Positions 1 to 13,402 of a DNA stretch of 25,910 nt are shown here, piece by piece. Below the pieces are notes generated by a model. That model was not told the origin of the DNA and did no database searches. It worked only from the letters and a program-made list of their open reading frames with translations. Source of the stretch: a virus; the IMG/VR virus record IMGVR_UViG_3300001589_000147, positions 5 to 25,914 of that record; one strand, given 5' to 3'. Position 1 is the stretch's first letter; each line of letters starts with the position of its first letter. The position numbers and the translations under genes are program-made.

Positions 1-30
1 CAGTTGTTGTCTCGTTGCTGGTTGTGCCAT
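1..30 (-). CDS. 13: First ten codons of the probable gp13 neck protein (3' end outside window)
   Basis: ATG at 28-30 is followed by nine open codons giving M-A-Q-P-A-T-R-Q-Q-L to the window edge. The start has an excellent ribosome site (AGGAG, 8 bases upstream). In T4-like phages the gene after the fibre cluster is gp13, and gp13 proteins open with a short Pro/Thr/Arg-Gln/Glu-Leu segment before a 'LRRLGAP' motif (T4: NPKELKDVILRRLGAP). The visible residues fit that opening, but ten codons cannot prove it. Confidence 0.5.
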   Translation of the reverse strand, partial: MAQPATRQQL

Positions 31-38
31 CTAAAATG

Positions 39-43
39 CTCCT
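39..43 (-). promoter_or_regulatory. Shine-Dalgarno of the probable gp13 gene
   Basis: The minus strand reads GAGGAGCATTTTAG immediately before ATG, with 8 bases between AGGAG and the start codon. A TATAAAAA box (48-55) lies just upstream but is too close to leave a leader containing this site, so I do not call it a promoter. Confidence 0.6.
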
Positions 44-128
44 CTTCTTTTTATATGTATGATTTCTAGTGCATTTTCTAATGGCAGTTCCTTCACCGCC
101 CTTTGGTTTTCTGAACTTTTTTGAAAAT

Positions 129-449
129 CTATTTTTGTTTATCAATGAATTTTCGTACCTTTCTGATCCTTTCTGACTCGATTCGGGCATCGTCATCATA
201 GATCTTTTTGTAATTTTTAAACTCGTTCAATCTCGAAATGAAACGATCCCCATCTTCCCAAGGCATAGGAAGGGGGATTATCGTCGAACCATTACTTTTG
301 TAATGCTCTTGATTTTGAATATAGACTCTGGTTCTTTGATCGTGTGGTGGATCATAGTCCGGTTCTAGTTTTTTAAAAAGTTGAATATCTATTTCTTCAT
401 TATTTATGATGACTCTATCTTCGTCTACATTATGAATAAATCTGTTCAT
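129..449 (-). CDS. Small hypothetical protein before gp13
   Basis: This 106-aa protein is hydrophilic and charged, with no membrane segment. It has a proline-containing middle ('LEPDYDPPHDQRTRVYIQNQ', then 'IIPLPMPWEDGDRF') and a helical, basic C-terminus ('ARIESERIRKVRKFIDKQK'). ATG 449 lies 11 bases after the LamG-gene stop, with TGGAA upstream. It ends at TAG 129-131, right after an AAAAA run. A one-base slip there would add 33 residues ending at TAG 31-33, which abuts the gp13 ATG. No family was recognised. Its place between the fibre genes and the neck gene corresponds to T4 wac (fibritin), but the sequence gives no support for fibritin. Confidence 0.7.
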   Translation of the reverse strand: MNRFIHNVDEDRVIINNEEIDIQLFKKLEPDYDPPHDQRTRVYIQNQEHYKSNGSTIIPLPMPWEDGDRFISRLNEFKNYKKIYDDDARIESERIRKVRKFIDKQK

Positions 450-460
450 GTATTATTCCA

Positions 461-2143
461 TCATGGTCCTGTGCTAAATCCATAACCAGACTCATCACCC
501 TTTGATAGACCAACTAGGGCAACAAAAGTTCCTTTACCGACTGTAATAGAAGTACCATTAGCAAGAGATGTTACTCTGGCATCAAGAATTTTCTTACCAT
601 CAGTGAGTGCAGTAATTGTCGTTATTTCGCTTGTGCGTGCTTTCTCATTCTCATTATTTGCTCTTCTGAATTCAGTAAGATCATTCCACAGTTTAATTAC
701 TTCTGGTCCTGTAAACCTAACTGACTCACCTTCGGCGTTTTCAATCGAATACGCACCACAAGAACCACTTGAAGTTCCTGCATTGATAGACGCAACTAAT
801 TCACCAACAACATTCATTGCATCTGCTCGTCTAACGAATGAGAACGAACCACCACCAGTTGCTCCGGTGTGCGTTTCTCCTGCTGGTCCAAAGTATCCAG
901 TAGTTCCACTAAACCCACCACATGAACCATCATTAAAGAATAATGTACAAAATGAGTTAGTAGAAGATCCGGTTGGACCTGGGTTATGTGTTTGTCCGTA
1001 AAGACGAACGTAGTCTAAATCCGCAGAATCTGAAGAGAGTGTATTTCTGATAATATCTTTATAAGTGGAGATATCCACAATGTCTAAACCACCACTACCA
1101 CCAGATCCGGTATTACCACCAGTTGACTGGATAGCGTAGTGTGCAGCACAAGACATACCAGTAATGAACCCACCACCTATTGTTGGATAATCAAAGTCTC
1201 CAGTCCCGGTAGTATTTCTTAACATCAATCTTCCCTTTGCTGAGTTCCAATTCGTTACCAAACCCTCAAAGAAGTTCCGACGATGCACTCCGGGATTCTC
1301 TCCAGACTGCACATCAAACAGATTGCAACCAGAGAGTCCTCTACATGGCAGATAATAAGCATAACCTGCTTGCCATGCTTCGTCTCCGAGACCGGCAGTA
1401 GATCCATCATTTGCACCATTCTGATAAGTACCAGTCAGGGTAAGACCAGACATTCCTGCCCACAATTCTGGACCAGAAGTCACACCGATAACAAGTTCAT
1501 CGATGTTTCCTTTCCATCTATTCCCAAGATCATTTGATCCACCGGGATTGAATCGGGCACCAATAGAGAATGGGTGTGGATTTAGTTTGATTCCGCCTCC
1601 ATTTGTTGACTGGTTTACTGTTCGTATTCCGTTTACATATGCAGTAACTGTAGATCCAGCAGCACTATTTAAATATCCAACAGCAAGGTGGAACCACTGG
1701 TGTCTCGGAATTTGTGCGCCGCTAGTTGGGCCAGTTATACCAGTTATGATTTCTGTTATGCTAACATTATTCAGTAAACCAGTTGTGCCGGTATCCGCAG
1801 CATCTGTCCAGTGGAATTTAATTGTATTTGTGTGTTGAGAAAGTTTGAACGAATCTCCACTACCTCCAGTAAAACCACCACCACCTGAACTACCGGCGCT
1901 CGTACCACTTTCAGGACCAGTGTATCCTTGATCTTCACTTGTATCCATCTTTGCGAGGATGATCTTATCGTTCTGGTACATCTTTGGCCAGAACCATCCG
2001 CTTATTAACCAGTTATCTAAAGTAGAACCATTATTATCATTTCCTCCACGAGAAGGTAGAACTATGCTACCAAGCATTTCAAATTTGATACTTTCCGCAG
2101 CACACGACTGTGTGATACCATTCCACTTCAGACCTGGAGGTGG
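461..2143 (-). CDS. LamG/concanavalin-like adhesin, C-terminal main part (frame B)
   Basis: From about 2143 downward this frame reads 'PPPGLKWNGITQSCAAESIK' and then 'LDNWLISGWFWPKMYQNDKI', the start of a LamG-type lectin fold. It continues with 'HQWFHLAVGYLNSAAGSTVT', 'AYVNGIRTVNQS', 'PFSIGARF' and 'WKGNIDELVIGV', the classic LamG strand series. The remainder is Gly/Thr-rich with a basic-acidic helix 'LWNDLTEFRRANNENEKART' near the end, and finishes 'GYGFSTGP'. The frame stays open to a TTG at 2377, but that upstream stretch (runs such as LLLLLK) competes with the better frame A. Glycan or surface binding is the likely role. TGA is at 461-463. Confidence 0.75.
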   Translation of the reverse strand, partial: PPPGLKWNGITQSCAAESIKFEMLGSIVLPSRGGNDNNGSTLDNWLISGWFWPKMYQNDKIILAKMDTSEDQGYTGPESGTSAGSSGGGGFTGGSGDSFKLSQHTNTIKFHWTDAADTGTTGLLNNVSITEIITGITGPTSGAQIPRHQWFHLAVGYLNSAAGSTVTAYVNGIRTVNQSTNGGGIKLNPHPFSIGARFNPGGSNDLGNRWKGNIDELVIGVTSGPELWAGMSGLTLTGTYQNGANDGSTAGLGDEAWQAGYAYYLPCRGLSGCNLFDVQSGENPGVHRRNFFEGLVTNWNSAKGRLMLRNTTGTGDFDYPTIGGGFITGMSCAAHYAIQSTGGNTGSGGSGGLDIVDISTYKDIIRNTLSSDSADLDYVRLYGQTHNPGPTGSSTNSFCTLFFNDGSCGGFSGTTGYFGPAGETHTGATGGGSFSFVRRADAMNVVGELVASINAGTSSGSCGAYSIENAEGESVRFTGPEVIKLWNDLTEFRRANNENEKARTSEITTITALTDGKKILDARVTSLANGTSITVGKGTFVALVGLSKGDESGYGFSTGP

Positions 2144-2564
2144 GTAGGACTTTAGCAATAGCAGCAGTGCTATAGAAAGGAGAGATTTTTGTTCCGGGTG
2201 GATTATTAAAACTAGTGTCTGATCTAGTATGGGCCCTGACTTTATCAATTTCAACTCGTTCGTCGTGTGCGAAATCACCACACCCAACAATCGTTCTGTA
2301 AAACCAACCATCATCACCACTTCCACCTGAAGAAGCACGACGTTGTGTTGGGATGTCCATTGTTCCTCTAGGATCAAATCCTTGAAGACTTGGGTTTGAG
2401 GTATTCAGTCTATCGAATAACTCTTGATCCATTGTGAAGATGTTATATGCTTTCTTCGATCTATACATCGAAGAGTTTTCTCGTTCATCTAAAATGTCTA
2501 CGATCCTACCAGTTTTAGAATCTACGACAATTTGCTTTACTTTGTTGTTGAGAGTTTTAGCCAT
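2079..2564 (-). CDS. N-terminal part of LamG-like adhesin (frame A, up to the frame break near 2142)
   Basis: This frame starts at ATG 2564 behind AAGGG, which overlaps the previous stop, and gives 'MAKTLNNKVKQIVVDSKTGR', then 'SSMYRSKKAYNIFTMDQELF' and an ordinary polar sequence up to 'STAAIAKVLP' (residue 141). After that it turns into an unconvincing tail, 'TSRSEVEWYHTVVCCGKYQI', and stops at 2079. The natural continuation ('PPGLKWNGITQ...') lies one base further on in the +1 frame. I therefore read 461-2564 as one gene of about 700 aa, either broken by a single-base change or read by +1 frameshifting. The N-terminal part probably docks the protein to the virion. Confidence 0.7.
   Translation of the reverse strand: MAKTLNNKVKQIVVDSKTGRIVDILDERENSSMYRSKKAYNIFTMDQELFDRLNTSNPSLQGFDPRGTMDIPTQRRASSGGSGDDGWFYRTIVGCGDFAHDERVEIDKVRAHTRSDTSFNNPPGTKISPFYSTAAIAKVLPTSRSEVEWYHTVVCCGKYQI
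2131..2150 (-). other. Frame junction (+1) in the LamG-like gene
   Basis: The coding strand reads GTC CTA CCC ACC TCC AGG in frame A. Moving one base at CCC-A (to CCA, 2143-2141) gives CTA CC(C) CCT CCA GGT, so the protein runs on as 'AKVLP-PPGLKWNG'. Removing one C from the CCC run would fuse the frames directly. No obvious Shine-Dalgarno-like stimulator or hairpin was seen next to it. Confidence 0.65.
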
Positions 2565-2579
2565 CTAGTTCAATTACCC

Positions 2580-5500
2580 TTAATCAATGTTGGAAGGTTC
2601 TATGTTGGAAGAAGAATCTACCGCCCACTTTGTTGCAGAATTTGGTGTCACTGGATCTGTTGTTTGTTCTATCACACCAGTCTTATTTATAAGAGAACCG
2701 AATCTAGAAAGACCATGTGCGATTGACATTCCAGAATAAATCTTCGGAACAGAAAGTGTACTAGCAGCAGTTTCAGTCCCAGCATTGACTGTGCGTCCAA
2801 TGAATGAGATCGCATTGGAGCAGTTTACACTCGAATCATTAATAGCAGAGAAGTTGTAATGTGCATTGTCGTATGCTTTAGAGGAAACTGCTGCTATGTT
2901 TGAGTTCATATTGGCAGTATACCCACCGCGTGTTCTGATTGCTGCACTGCTCTTTGCATTGATATTGGAGTTCATTGATGCAAAGAATCCTGCACCTGCA
3001 CATCCTCTTGCAAATGCATAGTCAGCATCTATGGTAGAATTTTCTAGTGCCATGTATGCTTGGTTTCTTAGCAATGAAACATAAGATCTTTCTGCATTGA
3101 GTGAAGAATTATTATATGCTAAGAATCCGATACCCATTGGATGATCCACTAATCGATACAGTGTAGTGTCTGGAACTACGTCATTACAAGGTCGATCGCA
3201 TGTTCCTGCATTGTCTGTACCGGGTGGACATTCACAGTCACCGTCAGTGCAGTCACTGCATTGTATATACCCAATATCAATATTACCATTTGGGCATATT
3301 GTACCGGGTACATCATCTCCACATGAGGGGTTATTGCAATAACATGGTTTCGGATCATTGGAATCGTCGAAACAACCTCCTCCGGGACAGTTGCAACAAC
3401 ATGCAGATCCAGAACAGTTTATTGGGAGTACGCAATTCACATCACAACATTCTGCTGGTTGTTCACCTTTACATACACAGTCATCTTTGTTCAGGCAGCA
3501 GAATTGATCAGATGCACACGCACAATCACACTCTGGGTGGTTGCACCCGATTGTTGAACACCATTCGCACGGGCCGCTGCCCGGTCCGGGATCCCCTTCG
3601 GGGAAACAACTCGGATCACATGGAGTATTCTCACAGATACATTCCTGCTCCGAGGCACAACACGGCGGTGATCCGATTCCAATCCATTCCCCACAATTTC
3701 TACCCTCACTCGAACAAAAATAACTCGCACATATACAGCAGCGATCATCGCCATTGCAAATCTGTGCCTCACATGTCCCCGATCCGTCTCCACCACATTC
3801 AGTCGATAAGCAGGAGCATGGGTTGGAGCATTCGATACAAGGTCCATCCGCGCCGTCGCAATCACCTTCGTTGAAGTTATCGTCGCCTCCGCCGCCTGCT
3901 CCCGAACCTACTCCTGCCCCGTCTCCGCCATTGAGGTTTACTGGTCCATCTTGATCTAAATCAAATCTATCCCCAATATAACCGGGAGGTATACAAACAC
4001 CACCAGAAATGTCTTCGTTGTTGCTACCACACGGTTCGACTGCTGTGTATGTGACTGGAAGACTTTCTTCTGGTAATACTCCTGCTCCAACACCATAAAA
4101 CTGAGTCCCGCCAAGTGTGAGTATTCTTGGTGGTGGTACTTCGTTTCCGGAATCGTCAGGTGGTAAACTATTATCACCATCGGAGGGTGCTACTGCTCGT
4201 AGGTAAATTTGATTTCCTGTATTGAATGGATAATAGTTGTATACATCATTAACCGGATCTGATATTTTTGTATATGGTTTTAAATATGAGTTCCACACAA
4301 CTTGAACGTAGGAGATTTGTCCGGATGGTTGTAATAGTGCTAATCTTTCACCTTGATTCATTGTGGAGATACTTGTTCCTGGTCGATCTAAGTCAATTGT
4401 CATTGGACTATAACCAGCAGATGCAACGATACTATTTGTTACTTTGGCAGTCGATGTACCATTTGCAAGAACACCTGCAATATCACACCCAGTTATTACT
4501 GAATTTCTTGCATAGATTGATGAGTTTTGTTCTGCAACCATACCAAAGGAACAGTCTGAAATTGCAATCCGATCTGTATGAATCACTGAGTCGGTGTGTG
4601 CTGCAATTCCTGCATAAAATCCACAGACACCAACATTAGTACATGCACGAGCGCCCAACGAGGAATTTTTATATACAAAAATTCCTTCTCCACCCGATGC
4701 TGCCGGATTCATTTCATTGAAATGCTTGTATCTGACATCACCTTGAAAAACTATATCGGTTAGTGAAGAAAGACTACTGTCTGGATGTACAACAAGACCC
4801 TTTAGTGGTTTTGCTGGTCCAGACGAAGTTGCTCTTTTGAACTTAAATACTGTCTTTACTATAGTTGCCTCGATACGGTGATCGGATATAATAGTTCCGA
4901 GTGTCGGATCGATACCACTGGTGGTTATTGATCCATACTTACCTACTGGAACTCCTGTTTCGTGTGTTGCTTTCCCCGGAGCGTTCTTATAACCACCGAC
5001 GTAGATATCGTCGTTAACCTGAAACGATCCATCATCTGCATTGATCTTCGAATCACCGAGTCGGTGTAAGAAATTCTTTCCTCTTGATCTAAAAGTAACT
5101 GTATTATCTGATGCATTTACTCCAATAATTTGAAAACACCCAAGAACATTAGTTCGGGCATCTCCGGTAGCACCAGTAATTCCTTCGGATGCAACTGATC
5201 CATCAACTTGTGATGGGTAGTATCCGGGATGGATGTTTGTTCGATCCCGAAGCAACATGTAATCGCCTTCTTCAATTCCATCTACACTTGGTCCAATTGT
5301 TGATGTTGTTGGAAAGTTATCCGAGTTTGCCAACTTCACAGTAATTCTATTATCGACAAGGGAACCGTTACCATAACCATTATCGTTTTCAACTGCATCA
5401 TACTGGTAGTTTGTAACTTCCTGTAGGAAAAAACTCAAAGGAGTGTCTCCAACAATACTAATACCTTTGTCACTTGTATTTTTTATCTGGATACTAGTTG

Positions 5501-5729
5501 TGAGATCATACGTTCCCTTGGCACAACGAACAATGGCATGTCCTCTGTCAGTGAAGAACATACGTTCAATATCATTCAACGCTCTACCGGGAGTAAAAAA
5601 TGGATTGGTTATACTACCATCACCATTAGTATCACTACCAGTAGGAGAACAATGGAATGTAGTAACGCTGTCAATTACATTGACATTAAACCCACCTTGC
5701 GGAATTCTAATTGCACTTTGATCAGCCAT
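2580..5729 (-). CDS. Beta-helix tail fibre with a 225-residue, 48-cysteine insertion
   Basis: The protein is 1049 aa. Residues 25-80 show a right-handed beta-helix opening, 'SPTGSDTNGDGSITNPFFTP' then 'AIVRCAKGTYDLTTSIQI', as in pectate-lyase/DUF1565-like folds. Around 346-435 are rungs of about 22 residues ('GIFVYKNSSLGARA', 'FGMVAEQNSSIYARNS'). Similar rungs resume at about 865-985 ('GFLAYNNSSLNAERS', 'FFASMNSNINAKSS'). Between them lie an unassigned beta region, a DLDQDG calcium-type loop, a Gly linker, and residues 624-848 with 48 cysteines. No lyase active-site residues were identified. The role is probably host-surface attachment. ATG 5729 follows TAGGAG, which overlaps the upstream stop. 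The frame is unbroken across the insertion. Confidence 0.82.
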   Translation of the reverse strand: MADQSAIRIPQGGFNVNVIDSVTTFHCSPTGSDTNGDGSITNPFFTPGRALNDIERMFFTDRGHAIVRCAKGTYDLTTSIQIKNTSDKGISIVGDTPLSFFLQEVTNYQYDAVENDNGYGNGSLVDNRITVKLANSDNFPTTSTIGPSVDGIEEGDYMLLRDRTNIHPGYYPSQVDGSVASEGITGATGDARTNVLGCFQIIGVNASDNTVTFRSRGKNFLHRLGDSKINADDGSFQVNDDIYVGGYKNAPGKATHETGVPVGKYGSITTSGIDPTLGTIISDHRIEATIVKTVFKFKRATSSGPAKPLKGLVVHPDSSLSSLTDIVFQGDVRYKHFNEMNPAASGGEGIFVYKNSSLGARACTNVGVCGFYAGIAAHTDSVIHTDRIAISDCSFGMVAEQNSSIYARNSVITGCDIAGVLANGTSTAKVTNSIVASAGYSPMTIDLDRPGTSISTMNQGERLALLQPSGQISYVQVVWNSYLKPYTKISDPVNDVYNYYPFNTGNQIYLRAVAPSDGDNSLPPDDSGNEVPPPRILTLGGTQFYGVGAGVLPEESLPVTYTAVEPCGSNNEDISGGVCIPPGYIGDRFDLDQDGPVNLNGGDGAGVGSGAGGGGDDNFNEGDCDGADGPCIECSNPCSCLSTECGGDGSGTCEAQICNGDDRCCICASYFCSSEGRNCGEWIGIGSPPCCASEQECICENTPCDPSCFPEGDPGPGSGPCEWCSTIGCNHPECDCACASDQFCCLNKDDCVCKGEQPAECCDVNCVLPINCSGSACCCNCPGGGCFDDSNDPKPCYCNNPSCGDDVPGTICPNGNIDIGYIQCSDCTDGDCECPPGTDNAGTCDRPCNDVVPDTTLYRLVDHPMGIGFLAYNNSSLNAERSYVSLLRNQAYMALENSTIDADYAFARGCAGAGFFASMNSNINAKSSAAIRTRGGYTANMNSNIAAVSSKAYDNAHYNFSAINDSSVNCSNAISFIGRTVNAGTETAASTLSVPKIYSGMSIAHGLSRFGSLINKTGVIEQTTDPVTPNSATKWAVDSSSNIEPSNID
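2684..2691 (-). promoter_or_regulatory. Possible T4-type late promoter box upstream of the LamG-like gene
   Basis: The minus strand reads TATAAATA, the T4 late promoter -10 consensus. It lies inside the 3' end of the beta-helix fibre gene, about 120 bases before ATG 2564. It is the only exact match I noticed upstream of a gene here. In AT-rich DNA one or two chance matches are expected over 26 kb. Confidence 0.25.
3186..3860 (-). other. Cysteine-rich insert domain (48 Cys in 225 residues)
   Basis: About one residue in five is cysteine. Spacings recur: C-x-C-x4-C (CSCLSTEC, CICASYFC, CICENTPC, CYCNNPSC), CC-x5-C-x-C twice (CCASEQECIC, CCLNKDDCVC), other CC pairs and one CCC. Asp, Glu, Gly and Pro are abundant while Lys and Arg are few. 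Locally the DNA is visibly richer in G+C than its surroundings, for example 3541-3600. No known family was recognised. Disulfide cross-linking or metal binding are the two obvious readings, and neither can be decided from sequence. Confidence 0.9.
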
Positions 5730-5746: not shown

Positions 5747-6970
5747 CTAGAGTTCGGCATTTACCGTAACCCAAATATTTCCTTCGATTTCGCCATCACC
5801 CTTATCGGATCCTACTGCACCACCACCGGGATTGTGATCTGTACCCAAACTGGCAATAAGATTTACCCCAAGAGTATTACTCGGTGTAATCTGAAGGATG
5901 AAACTATCTGGGAGTGTTTCTAGTAACGAAACTCCACGGGTAGAATCAATTGTTCTCCAGTTACCATAAACAAGTTTGCTTGCCCAGTATTTATTACGCT
6001 TTTCATCCATCAAAATTAATTTTGTGTTCTTTGACTTAACATTTCCAAGCGGACCATCTGTAGAAACATACGCACGAATGGTTTCGAAATATCGTTTACA
6101 GTCTCGAATATCATCTGCGATATCTCGTTGCTCGAAGTCTGTACTTTGTTCTCCTGCTTCCAACTGAACCTGTGATATATCTATCGCTTCTGTTGCCCCA
6201 GTGTTCCAACCGAATACACTCGGAGCAGCAGGATTGTCAGATCCAGTTCCTCCCGTTCCGGCCTGTAGATACATTCTCATCGCAAGATAACTCGACGCAG
6301 TATCACCAGCACCAGTAGGAACTCGATCCCCGGTAAAACCAAGAACCTTTCCTTCCAAATCAGGAACACTAAACGTATGAGAGAATTTAGTCCACGAAGA
6401 ACTAAGTGCAAATGTCCCACCAGCAAGTCTTACATCAGTGGAGTGATTACCAGCACCTGTACCAAAAACTTGAACAAGAGATGCACCAACAACTCTAGAG
6501 GATCCGCTGACAGTTAAAAATTTTGCTTTGAATGAGAGTGTTGCACTCTTGCCGGCAAGTGTTTTTACGTTTTCGATTCTTTGCTCTAAGTATGCTTCGG
6601 TTGTCAAACCAGTTGATAGGTTCGTTGGATCATAAAGATTCGACAACGATGCACCTGTTCCGCTAGTTTGAACTCGAAGAAAGTGATTGCTCAATGGAGT
6701 AAATCCACTCGGACCATCTAGTTCGTGTTCCATTCTCTCGATCGATAATTCAGGTTGGAACCCTTGTGTGGCACCGATCATATAAAATCGCCATCGATCT
6801 AATGTGTAGTCGAATGTTGATCCAAGAGTTGCTTCACCAAAAGTAAACACATAAGGATCGACAGTAAATTCACCACGCTGACAGATATTAAAATCGCCAT
6901 TGATGATTGAATTTCTTCTCTCCTGTGGACCTTGGTGTCCTCTTAGATTTATTGCACTACTACTGTACAT
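5747..6970 (-). CDS. Small fibre/adhesin made mainly of a carbohydrate-binding-like module
   Basis: The protein is 407 aa. After about 17 leading residues it goes straight into the jelly-roll seen at the end of the 1124-aa fibre: 'RRNSIINGDFNICQRG', a 'DYTLDRWRFYM' strand, 'QRIENVKTLAGKSATLSFKA', 'ISQVQLEAGEQSTDFEQRD' and CKRYF near residue 290. The QRIENV stretch is identical in both proteins. The last 115 residues are beta-rich and not recognised. With almost no docking N-terminus it may bind to another fibre as a tip or accessory adhesin. The start is ATG 6970 with AAGGA ten bases upstream. It follows the collar fibre gene after 20 bases. Confidence 0.78.
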   Translation of the reverse strand: MYSSSAINLRGHQGPQERRNSIINGDFNICQRGEFTVDPYVFTFGEATLGSTFDYTLDRWRFYMIGATQGFQPELSIERMEHELDGPSGFTPLSNHFLRVQTSGTGASLSNLYDPTNLSTGLTTEAYLEQRIENVKTLAGKSATLSFKAKFLTVSGSSRVVGASLVQVFGTGAGNHSTDVRLAGGTFALSSSWTKFSHTFSVPDLEGKVLGFTGDRVPTGAGDTASSYLAMRMYLQAGTGGTGSDNPAAPSVFGWNTGATEAIDISQVQLEAGEQSTDFEQRDIADDIRDCKRYFETIRAYVSTDGPLGNVKSKNTKLILMDEKRNKYWASKLVYGNWRTIDSTRGVSLLETLPDSFILQITPSNTLGVNLIASLGTDHNPGGGAVGSDKGDGEIEGNIWVTVNAEL

Positions 6971-6990: not shown

Positions 6991-9900
6991 TCAGAAAGAT
7001 GAAAGTGCTACTCGTTTCCATGTGTCTCCCTCAACACACACATAGAAGTGTGTGTTACTCCACGCAATATCTCCGGTGTTTCCAGTGTCCGAAGCAGATA
7101 CAGGAATATCAGGTCCGGTTCCACCAGAACCTTCGTCAGAACCGAGTCGGAATCTTCCCTTCGCATCAAAACTTGCTCTCTCTATACCATCAGTATCGAA
7201 AGACATCTTGTTTGTACTGTGTGTGTATTTGATCTGTCCTTCGTCTACGTCTCCAGCAGAGTTGTGGAATCTCACAGATCCTGTCTTGCTTCCGAGAGAT
7301 CGAACTTCAATTGCAGGATCTCCGGTTCCGTGACAAACAATCTTGGTGTTTGATCCGTACACATAAAGATCAGAGTCAACAGATGCATCTGGATCTGTAC
7401 AACTCGAACCAACGGCAAGTTTACCGGAGAATGATCCGGTTGCACCAAAACTAATTCCTATCAACGATGCTGTTATTCCGTGGGATCTAAAGGAACCCTT
7501 AACATCCAAAGATGCTCCGGGCGCATTTGTACCAATTCCAGCATCGCCATCCATGTATGCAATATCGGGTGCGTGATTTTCCCATTGCGAGAACGTGACA
7601 CCTTGGAATGTTGTACCAGAACTACCATCAGAAAGTAGTGCAGCAGATGCTCCAGCAGGCGCTCCTGTTGGTAGGGTATATCCGTCTGTTCCACTATTAG
7701 TTACTTCGATAGATATAGTCTTCATTGTTCCCCGAACATCCAAAGATGCTCCGGGAGCAGTCGTACCGATACCGATTCTGTGTGCTGCGGAAGCACCAGC
7801 AGAAACTCCAATCGTAAAGACTGGTTCGTTATCGTTTCCTGTTACGACTATACCTTCACCAGAAACTCCCTTAATTCGCATGAAGTTTTCTGTGGTGGAA
7901 TCTTCGTAGATATTAATCTGTGCGGTTATTCCATCGAGTCGAATTCCATTTGTCGAACCGCCACCAGAACCTCCGATGTGGAGTCTAGACTGTGGATCTG
8001 AATTATTGATTCCGAGGAATCCGCCAGTTCCGAGACGCATTCGCTCAGTTCCTGTTACATCTACTGTACTCTGAGAAGCAGCAAAGATAAGATCTTCACC
8101 GCTGTTTGGTCTGAGATCTCGGATCAGTGGTTTGAAATCATGATAACCATCGTCACCATCAGTATCGTAGATGAGAATGTCACCATCAGAAACTCCCGTG
8201 TCGTACACGTTTGTAAGTTCACCGGCAGTCAGTGCTACATCAAGTCCATTGATAAGCGATGCTTTTGCTGCTGATGTGAGTTTGATGATGTAGTTCACAA
8301 CACCATATGGTTGCATGTTGTTGTGACTGATACTTTCTCCTGTGTTATCAAGTGAAAGATCATCAAAGGATGCTGTGATTGATCCTGTGATTTGAATATT
8401 GCCAGTCCCATCAGTAGTTTGGAGATTTAGACTTCCCGAACCAAAGGTTGCATTACCGATGATCCCGATTTCACCGTGATCACCAAGTGCCGATCCACCC
8501 GGCCCAGAAAACAGGTCTGCAATTTGACTTGCTGTGTATGGGATCGGAAGTCCAGAGATAAATCTATAACCACTATTATCCGACCCATCCCATCGATTTA
8601 CCGGCCAACCACCAGAGTTCTGGTCGCAGTCTCCACATACACGATACCGGTCTGCGCCGGTAGTTGGATCTTTAGGTCGAGCAGTGAATACCTGATCATA
8701 TGGTTGCTGTGGGGCGTAAAATGAAGCGTCATCATTTCCTACTAATTGCGAAACCCCGACAACGTGAGTGTGCTGCGGAACCTTGAGTCCGGTTGAGTTT
8801 ACTACACCAGAACCAGCGATCGAAATATCACTGAGGTTGAATGCAAAATTAGGTTCGAAACCCAATGAAGAATCGGCAGAAATTGCATGAGTGTGAACTG
8901 GAAGTTCAGGAATAGTAAGTTGATGAACTTCCTCGCCGCCTTCTTGTCCCAATTTGTAATCATATAATGTATTATTTGATCCAGCATTTGTTCCGATGAT
9001 GGTCCTACCACGAAGATCTGGTTTTCTGAATTCGTTTGTTTCTTGTGCAGAAACGAAGAAAGATGCACCAATGTCATCACTTAATGGAATATTATTCGCA
9101 CTAATAATAGTTATCGTAGCGTGTTCAACACCTGTGCTGTCTGTGTCTACTAGTGCTGGAAATCTTAAGACTGGACTATCTGGTACTAGTACCGTTCCAC
9201 CCGCACCGGCGATTTGTTTTGTGAGATGATCAACTGTAACCGTCATTGTATTTGTGGATTCATCCCAATCAATAATTTGACCAGTGACAATTTGAGATTG
9301 TCCAAGTTCACCACCAATTGCATCATAGATGAATGTTGAGGTAACTCTACCACCTATAATCGAATATGCATTAAAATCTACATCAAAACCATCTCTTCTG
9401 TTTATTGTAAGTTTCTGTGTAAATCCGTATCGATTTCCGATGCGTGAATGAAGTTCGGGATATGATGTTGCAACTAAAGTTTCGCCGTCACACAAACTCC
9501 AACCATCTGGCACATCATTTTGTTCTCCTGCGTATGGTGCAATTACACCGGCAGGTTGAATACCTTCTAGACTTACTGTTGCTTCACCACCAATAAGTGT
9601 GCCGATATAATTTGTTACTAAACCTTTACCTTGCTCAGTTCTTGTGAGCATAGGTTTAATGACTGTACCACCGGCAGTCGGTGGTGCGTCGATCAATTTA
9701 CCGTTAGATGTATCTGATAGGAACCATACTAACTTTGTTTCGTCGTCAATTTCTGCCATTGCAGAAAGATCAATTTCACCCTGATATACAAGGGTAAACT
9801 GACTGGTGCTAAGTACCTTTTCAATCACACCAGATACTTCTGCGTTCACAGCAGAGTTTGCTTGTGCGCCGACAAAACCAGAAGTGGCAACATCCCAACG

Positions 9901-10005
9901 AACAACATCTCCAGCAACAAATCCGTGTGTTGCTTGGGTTATGTTATTCCGGATGGACTTTCCATCTGCGGATGCTGTTTGTAATTTGAATGCACTATAT
10001 GCCAC
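6991..10005 (-). CDS. Tail collar domain fibre (short tail fibre gp12-like)
   Basis: The protein is 1004 aa. Residues 25-135 carry one copy of the module found twice in the upstream fibre ('ATHGFVAGDVVRWD' to 'NYIGTLIGGE'). Residues 153-575 form a phage tail collar domain: 'VPDGWSLCDGETL', 'SYPELHSRIGNRYGF', 'FRKPDLRGRTIIGTN', then 'LTIPELPVHTHAIS' and a second HTH at about 413. It ends 'HNNMQPYGVVNYIIKL'. The HxH pairs recall the metal-binding histidines of T4 fibre tips. Residues 665-860 contain (I/L)GI-type LDVxG repeats, and the last 35 residues match a common fibre end ('HFYVCVEGDTWKRVALSSF'). The start is GTG at 10005: GGAG lies 10 bases upstream, an in-frame TAA lies just upstream, and no early ATG exists. 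Confidence 0.87.
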   Translation of the reverse strand: MAYSAFKLQTASADGKSIRNNITQATHGFVAGDVVRWDVATSGFVGAQANSAVNAEVSGVIEKVLSTSQFTLVYQGEIDLSAMAEIDDETKLVWFLSDTSNGKLIDAPPTAGGTVIKPMLTRTEQGKGLVTNYIGTLIGGEATVSLEGIQPAGVIAPYAGEQNDVPDGWSLCDGETLVATSYPELHSRIGNRYGFTQKLTINRRDGFDVDFNAYSIIGGRVTSTFIYDAIGGELGQSQIVTGQIIDWDESTNTMTVTVDHLTKQIAGAGGTVLVPDSPVLRFPALVDTDSTGVEHATITIISANNIPLSDDIGASFFVSAQETNEFRKPDLRGRTIIGTNAGSNNTLYDYKLGQEGGEEVHQLTIPELPVHTHAISADSSLGFEPNFAFNLSDISIAGSGVVNSTGLKVPQHTHVVGVSQLVGNDDASFYAPQQPYDQVFTARPKDPTTGADRYRVCGDCDQNSGGWPVNRWDGSDNSGYRFISGLPIPYTASQIADLFSGPGGSALGDHGEIGIIGNATFGSGSLNLQTTDGTGNIQITGSITASFDDLSLDNTGESISHNNMQPYGVVNYIIKLTSAAKASLINGLDVALTAGELTNVYDTGVSDGDILIYDTDGDDGYHDFKPLIRDLRPNSGEDLIFAASQSTVDVTGTERMRLGTGGFLGINNSDPQSRLHIGGSGGGSTNGIRLDGITAQINIYEDSTTENFMRIKGVSGEGIVVTGNDNEPVFTIGVSAGASAAHRIGIGTTAPGASLDVRGTMKTISIEVTNSGTDGYTLPTGAPAGASAALLSDGSSGTTFQGVTFSQWENHAPDIAYMDGDAGIGTNAPGASLDVKGSFRSHGITASLIGISFGATGSFSGKLAVGSSCTDPDASVDSDLYVYGSNTKIVCHGTGDPAIEVRSLGSKTGSVRFHNSAGDVDEGQIKYTHSTNKMSFDTDGIERASFDAKGRFRLGSDEGSGGTGPDIPVSASDTGNTGDIAWSNTHFYVCVEGDTWKRVALSSF
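7501..7755 (-). repeat. 21-bp direct repeat (7501-7521 and 7735-7755) in the collar fibre gene
   Basis: Two identical 21-base copies are 234 bp apart, exactly 78 codons, and encode the same Pro-Gly-Ala-Ser-Leu-Asp-Val stretch. They lie in 'GIGTTAPGASLDVRG' and 'GIGTNAPGASLDVKG'. A diverged relative, 'LGINNSDPQSRLHIGG', lies further upstream in the gene. Confidence 0.85.
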
Positions 10006-10027: not shown

Positions 10028-13000
10028 CTATTTAGTAATATTATTCTTGAGTTCTGAGTCTGCATCGAAACCTTTGATAAGGTTATCTGATCCCCCAAGC
10101 GAACCGACATAAACACTTCGTTTGCCGGTAGAGTTGTTCGAAAAGAATCCCTTATCGGATCCACCAGCATGACTCTGACTCACTAGTCCAAGTTGCATGT
10201 TTGGTTTTGCTCGCATGGTTGTGGGGAAGAAAATTGTAAATCCTGTGCTATCAGAACCTGCAATGATTTCTACATTTCCGGCCATGTCTAGATCTCTCCA
10301 GTAGTACCGTTGACATGATTCAAGATCTGACTCTACATCTGGATTTTGGAATGTAGTTGCTTGCTGTCCGTGTTCTACTTGAACCTGAGCGAGTGACAGA
10401 ATACCATCATAGGTCAGTCCGGCAGCAAATCCAGCAAGAGTTGCACCCATAGCGGTGGTAAACGATTCATTGTTGTCCTCGGAGTGAGTAATGTATCTAA
10501 GATCCAAGAATGATGTGTCACCAATACTAGTTCCTACCAAGAATGCCGGTAAGGATACTGTGTGTGTAAACTTGTTCCATTCTGTACCAAGTCCAATATC
10601 TTCCACATGAACAGTGTTTCCTTCTGCGGTATTACCAAGTGCTTGGTAGTCTTGAACAACTGCAACTCGAACATTTCCATTTTTGGTTCCCTTTGCCCAA
10701 TAACTAAGGGTTACGTCTTTGTTCGCAAATCTACGGACGTTTTCAATTCTTTGTCCTACAGAAACAGTAGATTTATTTTCATTTCCAGAATTGGCATCAA
10801 TATATCCTTGGAAGTTCAAGTAATGCTTAGGGTATCCGGGGATTGTTGTTTGTGCATCCACGAATGTTCCCTGAGAAATTCCACCAATAATATTGGAAGC
10901 AGATCCCGATGATGTTAAATCTGGAATTACTTCTGCATTGAATCTATCTGCTGCAAACACATCATACTTAGATCCATCCGTTTGGAAGGTGTCCGAAAGA
11001 GTTACAGTTCTAACTCCAGTTGCGTTTGAGATAAAGTGTCCAGACTGAGGGCCGTTGCCGCTGAGGGGACTACCAGCAGTGGTGATACCAGTTACTCTTT
11101 GCCAATTATCAAAGTTACTATTGATGATTAGGTTTCTTCCCTGCTTACCAACAACAGGAGGAACCACTAAACCACCGTCTTCGATAAAGTATCCGAGGAC
11201 TTCGACTTGCACAGAAAAGGATTCTGTGTGAGATGGAATTCCCTGAACTAAAGCATGTGGTTTTCCAAGAGAAACTGCTATCTGTCCATTTGGATTTGAA
11301 TTTTCAATTGGAACGATCTTTGTAAAGTTATTGGTATCAGCGTTAAAACTTGCCATCCCTGCATCTCTAGTAGATTGGGTGGCGATATTTTCAGTAGTTT
11401 CAAAATTGATTGGGAAGTTCGCATTTGGAACACCAGCATAAACTTCTTCAAACCTACCAATACCTCTTCGCTTTATGTAAATCTTCACCATCATATGCGT
11501 GGCATTGTCGGGTGGTGTTATCTTTGTGAAGTAGTCATTGATGCTTGTCCAGGCGCCTGTGTTATTTGTATAATTATACTCAACATTATGTGGTTGTGAG
11601 GTATTATCAGAAGATTCAGTCGATTGACTAAAGAATATTCTGAACTTTTCATATGTCGAGATTTCAGGATCATACGGAGACGGATTTGTTCCTGATGCTA
11701 AGAATGGCAAGGGAGCAGTTGATCTTGCTTGCTTGAACATCAGTTTAGTTACTTTTTGTCCATCGGTTGGGGAGAACGTCTTACCTGTTAATGAAGTAGT
11801 TTCTTCTGAGTCTCCGTCGCCAGTAGGTGGAGCAACATTTGTAGTAATTTTTCTACCAACATACGACAGAACCAGTCCTCTTGTTGGACTCGTTGCAATG
11901 AACATTGGTTTCTTGACCATGTTAATAGTTCGTGGATATTCTAATCCAAGACTACTGATCGGCGCACCTGAACTGTTTGGTGTTAAGAAGTATACTCTTC
12001 CCGTGTTATATGTGTACGGTCCGTCCTGAAGATCTACCCAACCTGAGTTTGTAAGATAGAATGCATCTGATGATCCAGAAGCAGGAGTTACAATTTCACT
12101 AATGATTCCCTGTGACTCTGCATCATATTCACTATTTGCTTGTGCTTTAACATAGACACCAAACGGTTGTGCTGGATTTGTTATACCAGTTTCAAACCTC
12201 ATAACATCACCAACGGTATATCCGTGGTTCTCCTGATTAACAAGAAGTCTATTTCCCTGTGAAACCACACCAGTTTCAATTGACTCTGCAATTTCTCCGC
12301 CGATATAACTAACAACGAATCCAGTGTCTCCTGTCACACCAATCATCATTGGTTTTCTTACGAAACCAACTTGCGAATCTACGGGAGAATTTTGAGAAAG
12401 CATACCAGTCGTTCCAGACGAGAGGAAGTAGGCCCTTCCAATCTCCAAGGTAAATCCTGCGGGGACATTATCAATTATGGTGTCCCACCTAGAACTCTTA
12501 ACCTCACCTTGGAACGTAATGTCGAATGTTTTGTCATTGATGACTTCGGATACAATACCGATTGCTTCTGCACTTTCTTTACTACCGGCAAATGCTCCGG
12601 TGAAACCTTCACCGTGAGGTCTGACTGGCATACCAAAAGAAAGTCCATGTGCCGTATCTGTCGTTACTCTCTTCTTGTTAACACCGTGGAAGAAACTAGT
12701 GTGTCCCTCTTCGTCAATTTCTGCTACATCAATTGGTGTTGATAAAGTTGTATTATCATAACGGAGAGTTACGCTTCTGTGATTCCTAGTTATTCCACGC
12801 TGACCGTTTGTGAATCCGGGAGGAGCAGTAAATCCAAAAATGAGAACTTCACATGACTCACCACCACCAAAGTGTAGATTGCCTGCGGTTCCTGTTACTA
12901 ATCCTCTACCGTCACCAAATTCTATATTTTCGTTTGTAGTCCACGCACCAGTGTGTCCACATACACCAATTTGGTGTGGTTTCCATAACCAACCGGCACT

Positions 13001-13402
13001 AGGACCGTCTGAACGAGCGATGATAATACCACCACCACCCGCTGCAAGAATTTGTGAATCTGCACTTAATCCTTGTGTTCCGTCTTCGTAGGTTCCACCT
13101 AGTACAAGGTTGTAATCAGCAACAGTAACATTCGTAGAATGAACAGTTGTCATTTGACCTAAGATGGTAATATCAGAACCAAAGGTAACACCCTTCTGAA
13201 CAAACCCGGAGTGTTCTATGGCAAGATTTCCGTTTGCATCAGTGGACACAGAGATACCGTCACCAGAAACTCCAGTATAAACTTTGAGTCTGTTTAGTTT
13301 ATCAATAATGTCTTCGTTAGTAATACGTCTCCACTCTTGGAAGGTATCACCTAAAGAAACGTCTGCAATTTCATATGTGTTAAACTGTGGTCCGGTAGAC
13401 AT
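10028..13402 (-). CDS. Tail fibre-like protein with duplicated beta module and C-terminal carbohydrate-binding-like domain
   Basis: The protein is 1124 aa. Residues 1-60 begin 'TYEIADVSLGDTFQEWRRIT', a likely docking segment. Residues 67-105 hold a fibre strand unit, 'DITILGQMTTVHSTNVTVAD', common in marine phage fibres. Two copies of a module (12294-12655 and 11845-12235) follow, each running from an HG(L/Y)..G motif to SY(I/V)G. From about residue 754, 'GRNLIINSNFDNWQRVT' opens a carbohydrate-binding-like jelly-roll. It includes 'QRIENVRRFANKDVTLSYWA', an 'LAQVQVEHGQQATTFQNPD' strand, and closes at CQRYY near 1030. This layout is typical of fibres that touch host glycans. The start is ATG 13402 behind GAGGA. 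Confidence 0.83.
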   Translation of the reverse strand: MSTGPQFNTYEIADVSLGDTFQEWRRITNEDIIDKLNRLKVYTGVSGDGISVSTDANGNLAIEHSGFVQKGVTFGSDITILGQMTTVHSTNVTVADYNLVLGGTYEDGTQGLSADSQILAAGGGGIIIARSDGPSAGWLWKPHQIGVCGHTGAWTTNENIEFGDGRGLVTGTAGNLHFGGGESCEVLIFGFTAPPGFTNGQRGITRNHRSVTLRYDNTTLSTPIDVAEIDEEGHTSFFHGVNKKRVTTDTAHGLSFGMPVRPHGEGFTGAFAGSKESAEAIGIVSEVINDKTFDITFQGEVKSSRWDTIIDNVPAGFTLEIGRAYFLSSGTTGMLSQNSPVDSQVGFVRKPMMIGVTGDTGFVVSYIGGEIAESIETGVVSQGNRLLVNQENHGYTVGDVMRFETGITNPAQPFGVYVKAQANSEYDAESQGIISEIVTPASGSSDAFYLTNSGWVDLQDGPYTYNTGRVYFLTPNSSGAPISSLGLEYPRTINMVKKPMFIATSPTRGLVLSYVGRKITTNVAPPTGDGDSEETTSLTGKTFSPTDGQKVTKLMFKQARSTAPLPFLASGTNPSPYDPEISTYEKFRIFFSQSTESSDNTSQPHNVEYNYTNNTGAWTSINDYFTKITPPDNATHMMVKIYIKRRGIGRFEEVYAGVPNANFPINFETTENIATQSTRDAGMASFNADTNNFTKIVPIENSNPNGQIAVSLGKPHALVQGIPSHTESFSVQVEVLGYFIEDGGLVVPPVVGKQGRNLIINSNFDNWQRVTGITTAGSPLSGNGPQSGHFISNATGVRTVTLSDTFQTDGSKYDVFAADRFNAEVIPDLTSSGSASNIIGGISQGTFVDAQTTIPGYPKHYLNFQGYIDANSGNENKSTVSVGQRIENVRRFANKDVTLSYWAKGTKNGNVRVAVVQDYQALGNTAEGNTVHVEDIGLGTEWNKFTHTVSLPAFLVGTSIGDTSFLDLRYITHSEDNNESFTTAMGATLAGFAAGLTYDGILSLAQVQVEHGQQATTFQNPDVESDLESCQRYYWRDLDMAGNVEIIAGSDSTGFTIFFPTTMRAKPNMQLGLVSQSHAGGSDKGFFSNNSTGKRSVYVGSLGGSDNLIKGFDADSELKNNITK

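Follow-up and report, generated by a model that had tools for sequence, protein, structure and literature searches.

A cysteine-rich module in a phage tail fibre gene

The stretch of viral DNA analysed here comprises positions 5 to 25,914 of the IMG/VR record IMGVR_UViG_3300001589_000147 (25,910 nucleotides; hereafter, the window) and lies within a T4-like phage's tail locus. The gp6 gene was identified by profile search (phrog_219, E 1.3e-164), and the minus strand also encodes further baseplate wedge proteins, a fibre with a collar domain and a pair of fibres that match phrog_4492. Beside these fibres, between gp6 and the neck gene, lies a tail fibre gene with a module extremely dense in cysteine. 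A preliminary description of the sequence had reported 48 cysteines within residues 624-848 of the 1049-amino-acid product, and this count proved exact. The open reading frame (ORF) is divided as follows.

2580..5729, minus strand: tail fibre gene with the module, 1049 amino acids, 59 cysteines (ORF; recurs in seven other contigs)
3981..5729, minus strand: N-terminal part, residues 1-583, comprising the start of the fibre and the first section of a predicted parallel beta-helix, its best-predicted rungs lying at about 351-440 (AlphaFold2, beta-helix matches)
3981..4031, minus strand: residues 567-583 with Cys567 and Cys579, before the linker, kept in all five distinct sequences (alignment); possibly belonging to the module
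3861..3980, minus strand: linker, residues 584-623, Gly/Asp-rich, of variable length, containing DLDQDGPVN (sequence, alignment)
3186..3860, minus strand: cysteine-rich module, residues 624-848, 48 of the 59 cysteines (counts, alignment, spacing tests)
2583..3152, minus strand: C-terminal part, residues 860-1049, second predicted beta-helix part (rungs about 868-976) and fibre C-terminus (AlphaFold2, structure alignment)

The carrier of this fibre is an uncultured marine T4-like phage, and its nearest cultured relatives listed by gp6 and the neck protein, mostly phages of Pelagibacter, Methylophilales and Synechococcus, are about 35-47% identical; Caulobacter phage Cr30 is also among those listed for the neck protein. 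In contig L001, which is 99.9% identical to the window across 11.5 kb, the locus continues with the gene of the neck protein (gp13-like) and with genes presumably encoding terminase-like and sheath-like proteins.

Composition and spacing of the cysteines

Cysteine accounts for 21% of the module, compared with 0.50% (41 of 8130 amino acids) in eleven ORFs of the window with the module excluded, and the binomial log10 probability of at least 48 cysteines in 225 residues is about -61. The background is acidic and rich in Gly and Pro, as described previously (D+E 37, K+R 6, G 28 and P 22 of 225 residues). The premise that phage structural proteins are cysteine-poor holds for the other ORFs of the window but is not universal. 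Agrobacterium phage Milano has a contractile-tailed virion with cysteine-enriched proteins and many disulfides, and dithiothreitol reduces the stability of the virion (PMC10491603, PMC10811340). Milano can be taken as proof of principle for a disulfide-rich contractile-tailed virion. The arrangement differs, however: single cysteines of Milano are spread over the structural proteins (2.1-2.4%) and join chains, whereas here the cysteine is concentrated in one fibre module and the other window ORFs lack the generally raised content.

The spacings C-x-C-x4-C and CC-x5-C-x-C, previously described as recurring, are indeed non-random in the window module. The former occurs 5 times against 0.64 expected from shuffling (reached in 0 of 3000 shuffles) and the latter twice against 0.10 (p 0.004). 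They are not a general property of such modules, falling to 0 and 1 copies of C-x-C-x4-C and 1 and 0 copies of CC-x5-C-x-C in two distant lineages. Likewise, C-x4-C is enriched in the window module (10 versus 3.9 expected) and not in these two lineages. CxxC is below expectation (3 versus 6.3), C-x-C shows no clear excess (9 versus 7.9), and CC was observed 6 times versus 9.8 expected.

The module recurs at the same fibre position in several lineages

The module is found at the same position of the fibre in seven other contigs, namely L001, which encodes an identical protein, L002, L003, L011, L012, L013 and L026. Together these fibres represent five distinct sequences (P0001-P0005) and four lineages; L001 is approximately the same genome as the window and was not counted as an independent lineage. 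The fibre is complete and free of internal stops in six of the seven contigs, the copy in L026 being truncated at its 5' end. The module is thus no assembly chimera, one of the outcomes that would have undone the preliminary description.

Fibre homologues lacking the dense module were also found. In the sister contig L036 (665-3216, plus strand), the beta-helix half (E 1.7e-66 to the fibre N-terminal half) and the linker plus C-terminal half are separate genes, divided at the site of the window module; the second gene begins with an acidic Pro/Gly linker and has 5 cysteines in 299 codons. The same second gene, and no other part, lies at the start of contig L035 (56-952, plus strand). The C-terminal half of the second gene was considered as a homologue of the fibre C-terminus and rejected as such (E 0.04-0.1, not significant), leaving only a likeness of position. 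A homologous fibre in L038 (918 codons, 12 cysteines, E 2.9e-24) has no dense module, nor do weaker homologues in L049 (partial), L050, L057 and L060.

Fourteen larger contigs, a non-random sample picked by length that includes several fragments (G012 was covered for 60,000 of its 60,555 bases), were scanned for frames with at least 20 cysteines per 100 residues. The fibre module is present in three of them (G001, G002 and G004), giant cysteine arrays beyond it in two (G001 and G009), and neither in 10 of the 14. No cysteine-dense frame was found in the 50-kb tail segments of the three cultured relatives HTVC008M, Mosig and Melnitz. Many cysteine-rich open frames at other loci, among them L056, L122, L123 and L141, looked like shadow frames on visual inspection and were discarded.

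The linker upstream of the module carries DLDQDGPVN at residues 590-598 (window 3936-3962, minus strand), which in our estimation resembles a DxDxDG calcium loop. It reads DLDADGPVN in L002 and L003 and is absent in L011 and L012.

Conserved cysteines in a hypervariable background

Between the two closest relatives, P0002 and P0003, the cysteine codons of the module show 2 silent differences and no amino-acid differences over 123 non-synonymous sites, compared with 53.6 amino-acid differences over 407 non-synonymous sites in the rest of the module. Because no amino-acid change separates these two relatives at the cysteines, the codon comparison indicates that the module cysteines are under strong purifying selection. 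Between P0001 and P0002, 14 of the 56 cysteine codons common to the two whole fibres differ, all silently; within residues 567-852 the cysteine columns agree at 47 of 50 positions and the other columns at 134 of 227, against 650 of 763 in the remaining fibre. In seven more distant pairs, whose alignments lean partly on the cysteines themselves, agreement is 62-71% at cysteine columns and 25-36% at other module columns. L002 and L003 both lack the counterparts of C624 and C631 of the window and have C729 replaced by a cysteine two residues off, so that parity is kept.

Conversely, the residues between the cysteines diverge faster than the rest of the fibre, a hypervariability that the preliminary description had not foreseen. 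Outside the module, the window fibre is 85% identical to those of L002 and L003. In bins of 30 codons, the nucleotide identity of P0002 and P0003 is 94-100% along the fibre and 70-92% at columns 601-840, which cover the latter part of the linker and the bulk of the module (gaps scored as differences). The synonymous divergence (dS) rises as well, to 0.180 in the module versus 0.029 and 0.051 in the flanks for P0002/P0003, and to 0.891 versus 0.419 and 0.187 for P0001/P0002. Since silent sites are affected too, the module is probably a cassette exchanged with other phages, beyond faster protein change alone. Across three pairs, the ratio of non-synonymous to synonymous divergence (dN/dS) is 0.52-0.78 at non-cysteine module sites, 0.21-0.54 in the N-terminal part and 0.13-0.39 in the C-terminal part.

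The cysteine numbers are even under one gap rule

Cysteine runs were counted such that a run was broken at gaps of more than 30 residues. Under this rule the modules of P0001-P0005 contain 48, 46, 46, 44 and 44 cysteines, all even; the P0004 run includes two cysteines ahead of the linker and is 42 without them. The runs of the other dense proteins, from G001 and G009 (see below), are all even as well, with 128 (G001), 114 and 28 (first G009 protein) and 112 (second G009 protein), as were the runs under an earlier definition used first (48, 46, 42, 44, 128, 112 and 110). The long protein of L059, a contig described below, has 46 cysteines in its run. The parts of the fibre flanking the module are of mixed parity, with 9, 9, 9, 10 and 8 cysteines on one side and 2, 2, 2, 3 and 3 on the other. 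If the runs are independent, the chance that all eight are even (the near-twin P0003 omitted) is about 1 in 256. Because module counts are even while those of the flanks are mixed, the sequence evidence favours disulfides over metal. Sites of four cysteines alone would call for multiples of four, and 46 is not one, which speaks against metal sites.

The module is predicted to interrupt a beta-helix

AlphaFold2 predictions of the fibre, made with five sequences, are of low confidence overall (mean predicted local distance difference test [pLDDT] 37.6). Regular strands appear on both sides of the module, at residues 351-440 (block pLDDT 54-77, most of the remaining N-terminal part being below 60) and 871-970 (block pLDDT 54-82). 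The structure prediction suggested earlier gave no fold for the module, where pLDDT is 21-47. In structure alignments by VIA-align with low-confidence stretches retained, the fibre model matches parallel beta-helix chains, tailspikes and beta-helix enzymes among them, with Z 18.4-26.9 over 249-345 aligned residues among the 50 matches listed. Many of these alignments span the module on a single chain; that to 4c2l, for instance, covers 293..1026 and aligns 263 residues. Because alignments to single chains cover both sides, the module is best seen, on these models, as an insertion within one predicted parallel beta-helix of the tailspike kind, in line with the beta-helix fibre proposed in the preliminary description.

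The flanks share their predicted fold with right-handed parallel beta-helix tailspikes, lyases and epimerases (Andhra 8egr, LKA1 gp49 4ru4, HK620 4xkw and AlgG 4nk6); no sequence relation of the fibre to such proteins was found in the phage or PDB sequence searches. We know of no cysteine-rich insertion in them.

No relatives of the module in the libraries searched

Sequence searches of Pfam, NCBIfam, PHROGs and the PDB with the five modules gave no match at E values up to 10, although HMMER filters may hide weak ones; no sequence match to a curated disulfide-rich domain, such as EGF, granulin or TIL, was among the results. The whole 1049-amino-acid fibre gave only a weak tail match in PHROGs (phrog_4577, E 0.06). 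Among 50,697 phage records, the window fibre had no match at E 1e-3 and the module alone none at E 10, with the proviso that the BLAST low-complexity filter may mask parts of cysteine-rich queries. Matches to cultured phages were short and N-terminal, at E 0.4 for the L011 fibre (3 records) and E 0.2-0.6 for the L012 fibre (11 records). In bacterial and archaeal genomes, 84 stretches fit a peptide pattern that reaches close relatives only, and none encodes a relative. Full-text searches of an open-access library, outside which most subscription papers and bioRxiv lie, listed no account of a phage tail fibre with a dense cysteine module. The earlier statement that no phage domain of this kind is known therefore stands for the libraries searched, and the suggestion of a decoy or receptor mimic found no relative there to support it. 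The carrier fold and disulfide-bearing virions are already known; a phage fibre module of cysteines that is dense, even in number and hypervariable appeared in none of the family libraries, phage records or literature searched, and its disulfide chemistry is a prediction.

Larger cysteine arrays in other tail genes

Related phages carry still larger arrays in other genes of the tail locus, a point absent from the preliminary description. G001 encodes a 910-amino-acid protein with 129 cysteines that ends in a GACC-type repeat (114887-117616, corresponding to L194 14887-17616, minus strand). Identical copies exist in three other contigs, one of which is G003; of ten records tried, the other nine gave no match. 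The array adjoins a gp5-like baseplate gene and lies near a PAAR-like gene (both named by eye), and the phage carries the cysteine fibre as well. In G009, two adjoining tail-fibre-like proteins of 1511 and 1377 amino acids contain 158 and 123 cysteines, respectively (21180-29848, corresponding to L216 1180-5712 and 5718-9848, plus strand). Besides the cysteine array, both have an N-terminal domain, a stretch resembling collagen (in the first protein by Pfam at E 7e-4, below the cut-off; in the second as judged by eye) and a C-terminus that matches tail-fibre profiles (E as low as 1e-8 and 7e-4, respectively). Their CC spacing is one that we take to be granulin-like. C-x-C is depleted in the two arrays, with 5 occurrences versus 21.0 and 16.2 expected.

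Two further frames were seen upstream of gp13 in another T4-like contig, L059. One contains GACC-type repeats with 25 cysteines in 225 codons (3-677, plus strand); the other is a frame of 1027 codons with 50 cysteines, which matches a leucine-rich repeat and a tail-fibre profile (1369-4449, plus strand).

The arrays of G001, G009 and L059 resemble the window module in being dense, acidic, Gly/Pro-rich cysteine runs in tail loci, even-numbered in G001 and G009, but differ in the genes that carry them and in their spacings. Common descent of the window module with the G001 and G009 arrays was considered and set aside (z 0.7-3.0 against full shuffles, no clear support). Because composition is shared without a clear sequence relation, it appears that tail genes of this phage group acquired dense cysteine arrays on more than one occasion.

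A proposed disulfide-bonded adsorption module and its alternatives

The cytoplasm in which phage tail proteins are synthesised is reducing. We give about an even chance to the explanation that the module is a disulfide-bonded, fast-evolving module set in the beta-helical adsorption fibre of a marine T4-like phage. The helix would act as a rigid stalk or platform, from which the module would leave via the Gly/Asp-rich linker to be displayed at the side. In the host cytoplasm the thiols would stay free while the fibre assembles; after lysis, the cysteines would oxidise pairwise in sea water, locking many short loops, and only then would folding be complete. The cysteines would form a conserved scaffold on which the loops change quickly, the whole cassette probably being swapped between relatives. 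Such variability would be expected where a surface faces shifting host receptors or some other selection from outside; that the loops contact a host receptor or protect the fibre is a guess. Oxidation after lysis is suggested by synthesis in the cytoplasm together with the failure to find thioredoxin, glutaredoxin or DsbA in any of three contigs (G001, G002 and G003, possibly fragments, of which two are nearly the same at the fibre locus), so that oxidation would be unaided. Also in favour of this explanation, the neighbouring genes are fibres and a lectin-like gene. The disulfide mesh setting after lysis, put forward in the preliminary description as one of several possibilities, thus becomes the best-fitting guess, given the even counts, the conservation of the cysteines only, the single His and the lack of C-x-C or CxxC excess.

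Several observations weigh against this explanation. The disulfides themselves are deduced from parity and conservation, and the parity test comprises few sequences, among which the fibre modules are mutually homologous. With a gap rule of 60, P0004 becomes odd (47) as beta-helix cysteines join the run; the 5'-truncated L059 ORF has 25 cysteines and a sparser L059 frame 9; and whole-protein counts are odd in seven of eight cases (59, 57, 57, 55, 55, 129 and 123) and even once (158). CxxC is in excess in the G001 array (24 versus 15.9 expected, p 0.02). With no match to such an oxidoreductase found in the three contigs named above, oxidation would lack an enzyme. Relaxed constraint would fit the variation of the module as well as diversifying selection does, since dN/dS in the module is below 1 and the P0002/P0003 value for the N-terminal part (0.54) is close to that for the whole module (0.60). 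The L012 module, compared alone with that of the window, gives z 4.1 against full shuffles and 2.1 with the cysteines held in place, so that its homology appears to rest on the fibre flanks, the module similarity itself being weak. Finally, AlphaFold2 found no fold for residues 718-854 alone (mean pLDDT 36.5, predicted template modelling score 0.17), and Foldseek returned no match to the fibre model at E <=0.001 (best, LKA1 tailspike, E 0.04).

More tentatively, and with clearly less confidence, the explanation may extend to a group of uncultured marine T4-like phages that would build tail parts from arrays of 42 to about 130 cysteines, reduced in the cell and oxidation-folded after lysis, as self-hardening, hypervariable adsorption modules with a conserved disulfide lattice, in several apparently unrelated tail genes.

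Among the alternatives, the one that survives best, though doubtful, is that the module is a disulfide-bonded spacer or armour only, which stiffens and protects the hinge between the beta-helical parts and binds nothing, so that its loops vary freely. This would agree with L036, in which the N-terminal half ends near the module site and the second gene (as in L035) starts with an acidic Pro/Gly linker, with the homologous L038 fibre that lacks the module, and with module dN/dS values below 1. However, a spacer would hardly need 42-48 cysteines kept in four lineages, nor a sharp, cassette-like rise of silent divergence.

It is unlikely that the module instead takes up metal in the cytoplasm, in thiolate sites for Zn, Cu or Fe-S, and so could carry the metal or present it to a host receptor. 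The module does contain C-x-C and CC, its cysteine density is presumably within the metallothionein range, and the related G001 array has its CxxC excess. Metallothioneins are defined by enrichment of C-x-C and CC and the lack of aromatic residues. The module shares their cysteine density with CC and C-x-C, but neither spacing is enriched, it has 9-11 aromatic residues in each of the four modules counted (P0001, P0002, P0004 and P0005) and few Lys, and none of the five modules matched a metallothionein family model in Pfam or NCBIfam up to E 10, within the same HMMER limit. Two modules have 46 cysteines, not a multiple of four, and the stricter counting rule gives even parity throughout; C-x-C is depleted in the G009 arrays. 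The idea of iron in fibres exists for T4-type HxH fibres, T4 gp37 and gp12 of Alteromonas phage R22Y (PMC11705849), phage fibres, one of them from a marine phage, for which metal held by His pairs has been shown or proposed. The window fibre (2580-5729) has no HxH motif and its module one His (0-1 across four modules counted), and the earlier analogy to metal-carrying tails accordingly fails on this signature. With no C-x-C or CxxC excess in the window module either, metal appears less likely from the sequence, although a mixed or unusual cluster might also fit these counts.

Somewhat more improbable is an intermolecular mesh, in which the tail tip would be cross-linked through cysteines belonging to adjacent fibre chains or to further tail proteins rich in cysteine. 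Phage Milano has inter-chain disulfides in its tail (PMC10811340, PMC10491603), and a relative of the present phage has the second tail-locus protein with 129 cysteines. Even counts per chain, however, point to intrachain pairing, the density is far above what cross-linking needs, and the other tail proteins of the window are cysteine-poor. An assembly chimera or reading-frame artefact, for which nothing in the fibre gene itself speaks and only a frameshift in a neighbouring gene of the same record could be cited, can be dismissed, being refuted by homologues that carry the module at this position in seven further contigs, covering four lineages, and by purifying selection on the cysteine codons.

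If the disulfide explanation is true, a disulfide lattice with quickly changing loops would be the phage counterpart of disulfide-rich toxin scaffolds, and a cysteine scaffold carrying variable loops would be a new way of diversifying phage-host contact. A module that seemingly needs more than 20 disulfides raises the question of when and how the virion finishes folding after release. The even-number pattern could also serve as a simple rule that separates disulfide from metal modules in viral dark matter.

Neighbouring genes of the tail locus

The fibre gene is surrounded by the following genes.

461..2564, minus strand: lectin-like gene (Laminin_G_3, a ConA-like lectin domain), broken by a frameshift in the window (profile match)
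5747..6970, minus strand: tail fibre gene (phrog_4492; weak CBM_4_9 match, below the cut-off)
6991..10005, minus strand: fibre with a Phage Tail Collar domain and two HTH (HxH) motifs (profile and motif search)

The lectin-like gene is split into two frames near 2155, where the window has extra bases (four gap columns at 2155-2159 in the alignment with L001). The gene is intact in L001 (699 amino acids) and L002 (693 amino acids), and the frameshift is probably an assembly or sequencing error. The HTH motifs of the collar-domain fibre, at residues 371 and 412, are of the site type proposed for metal in phage fibres. The fibres at 5747-6970 and 10028-13402 (minus strand) both match phrog_4492 and look like paralogues, as their matches overlap at C-terminal profile positions.
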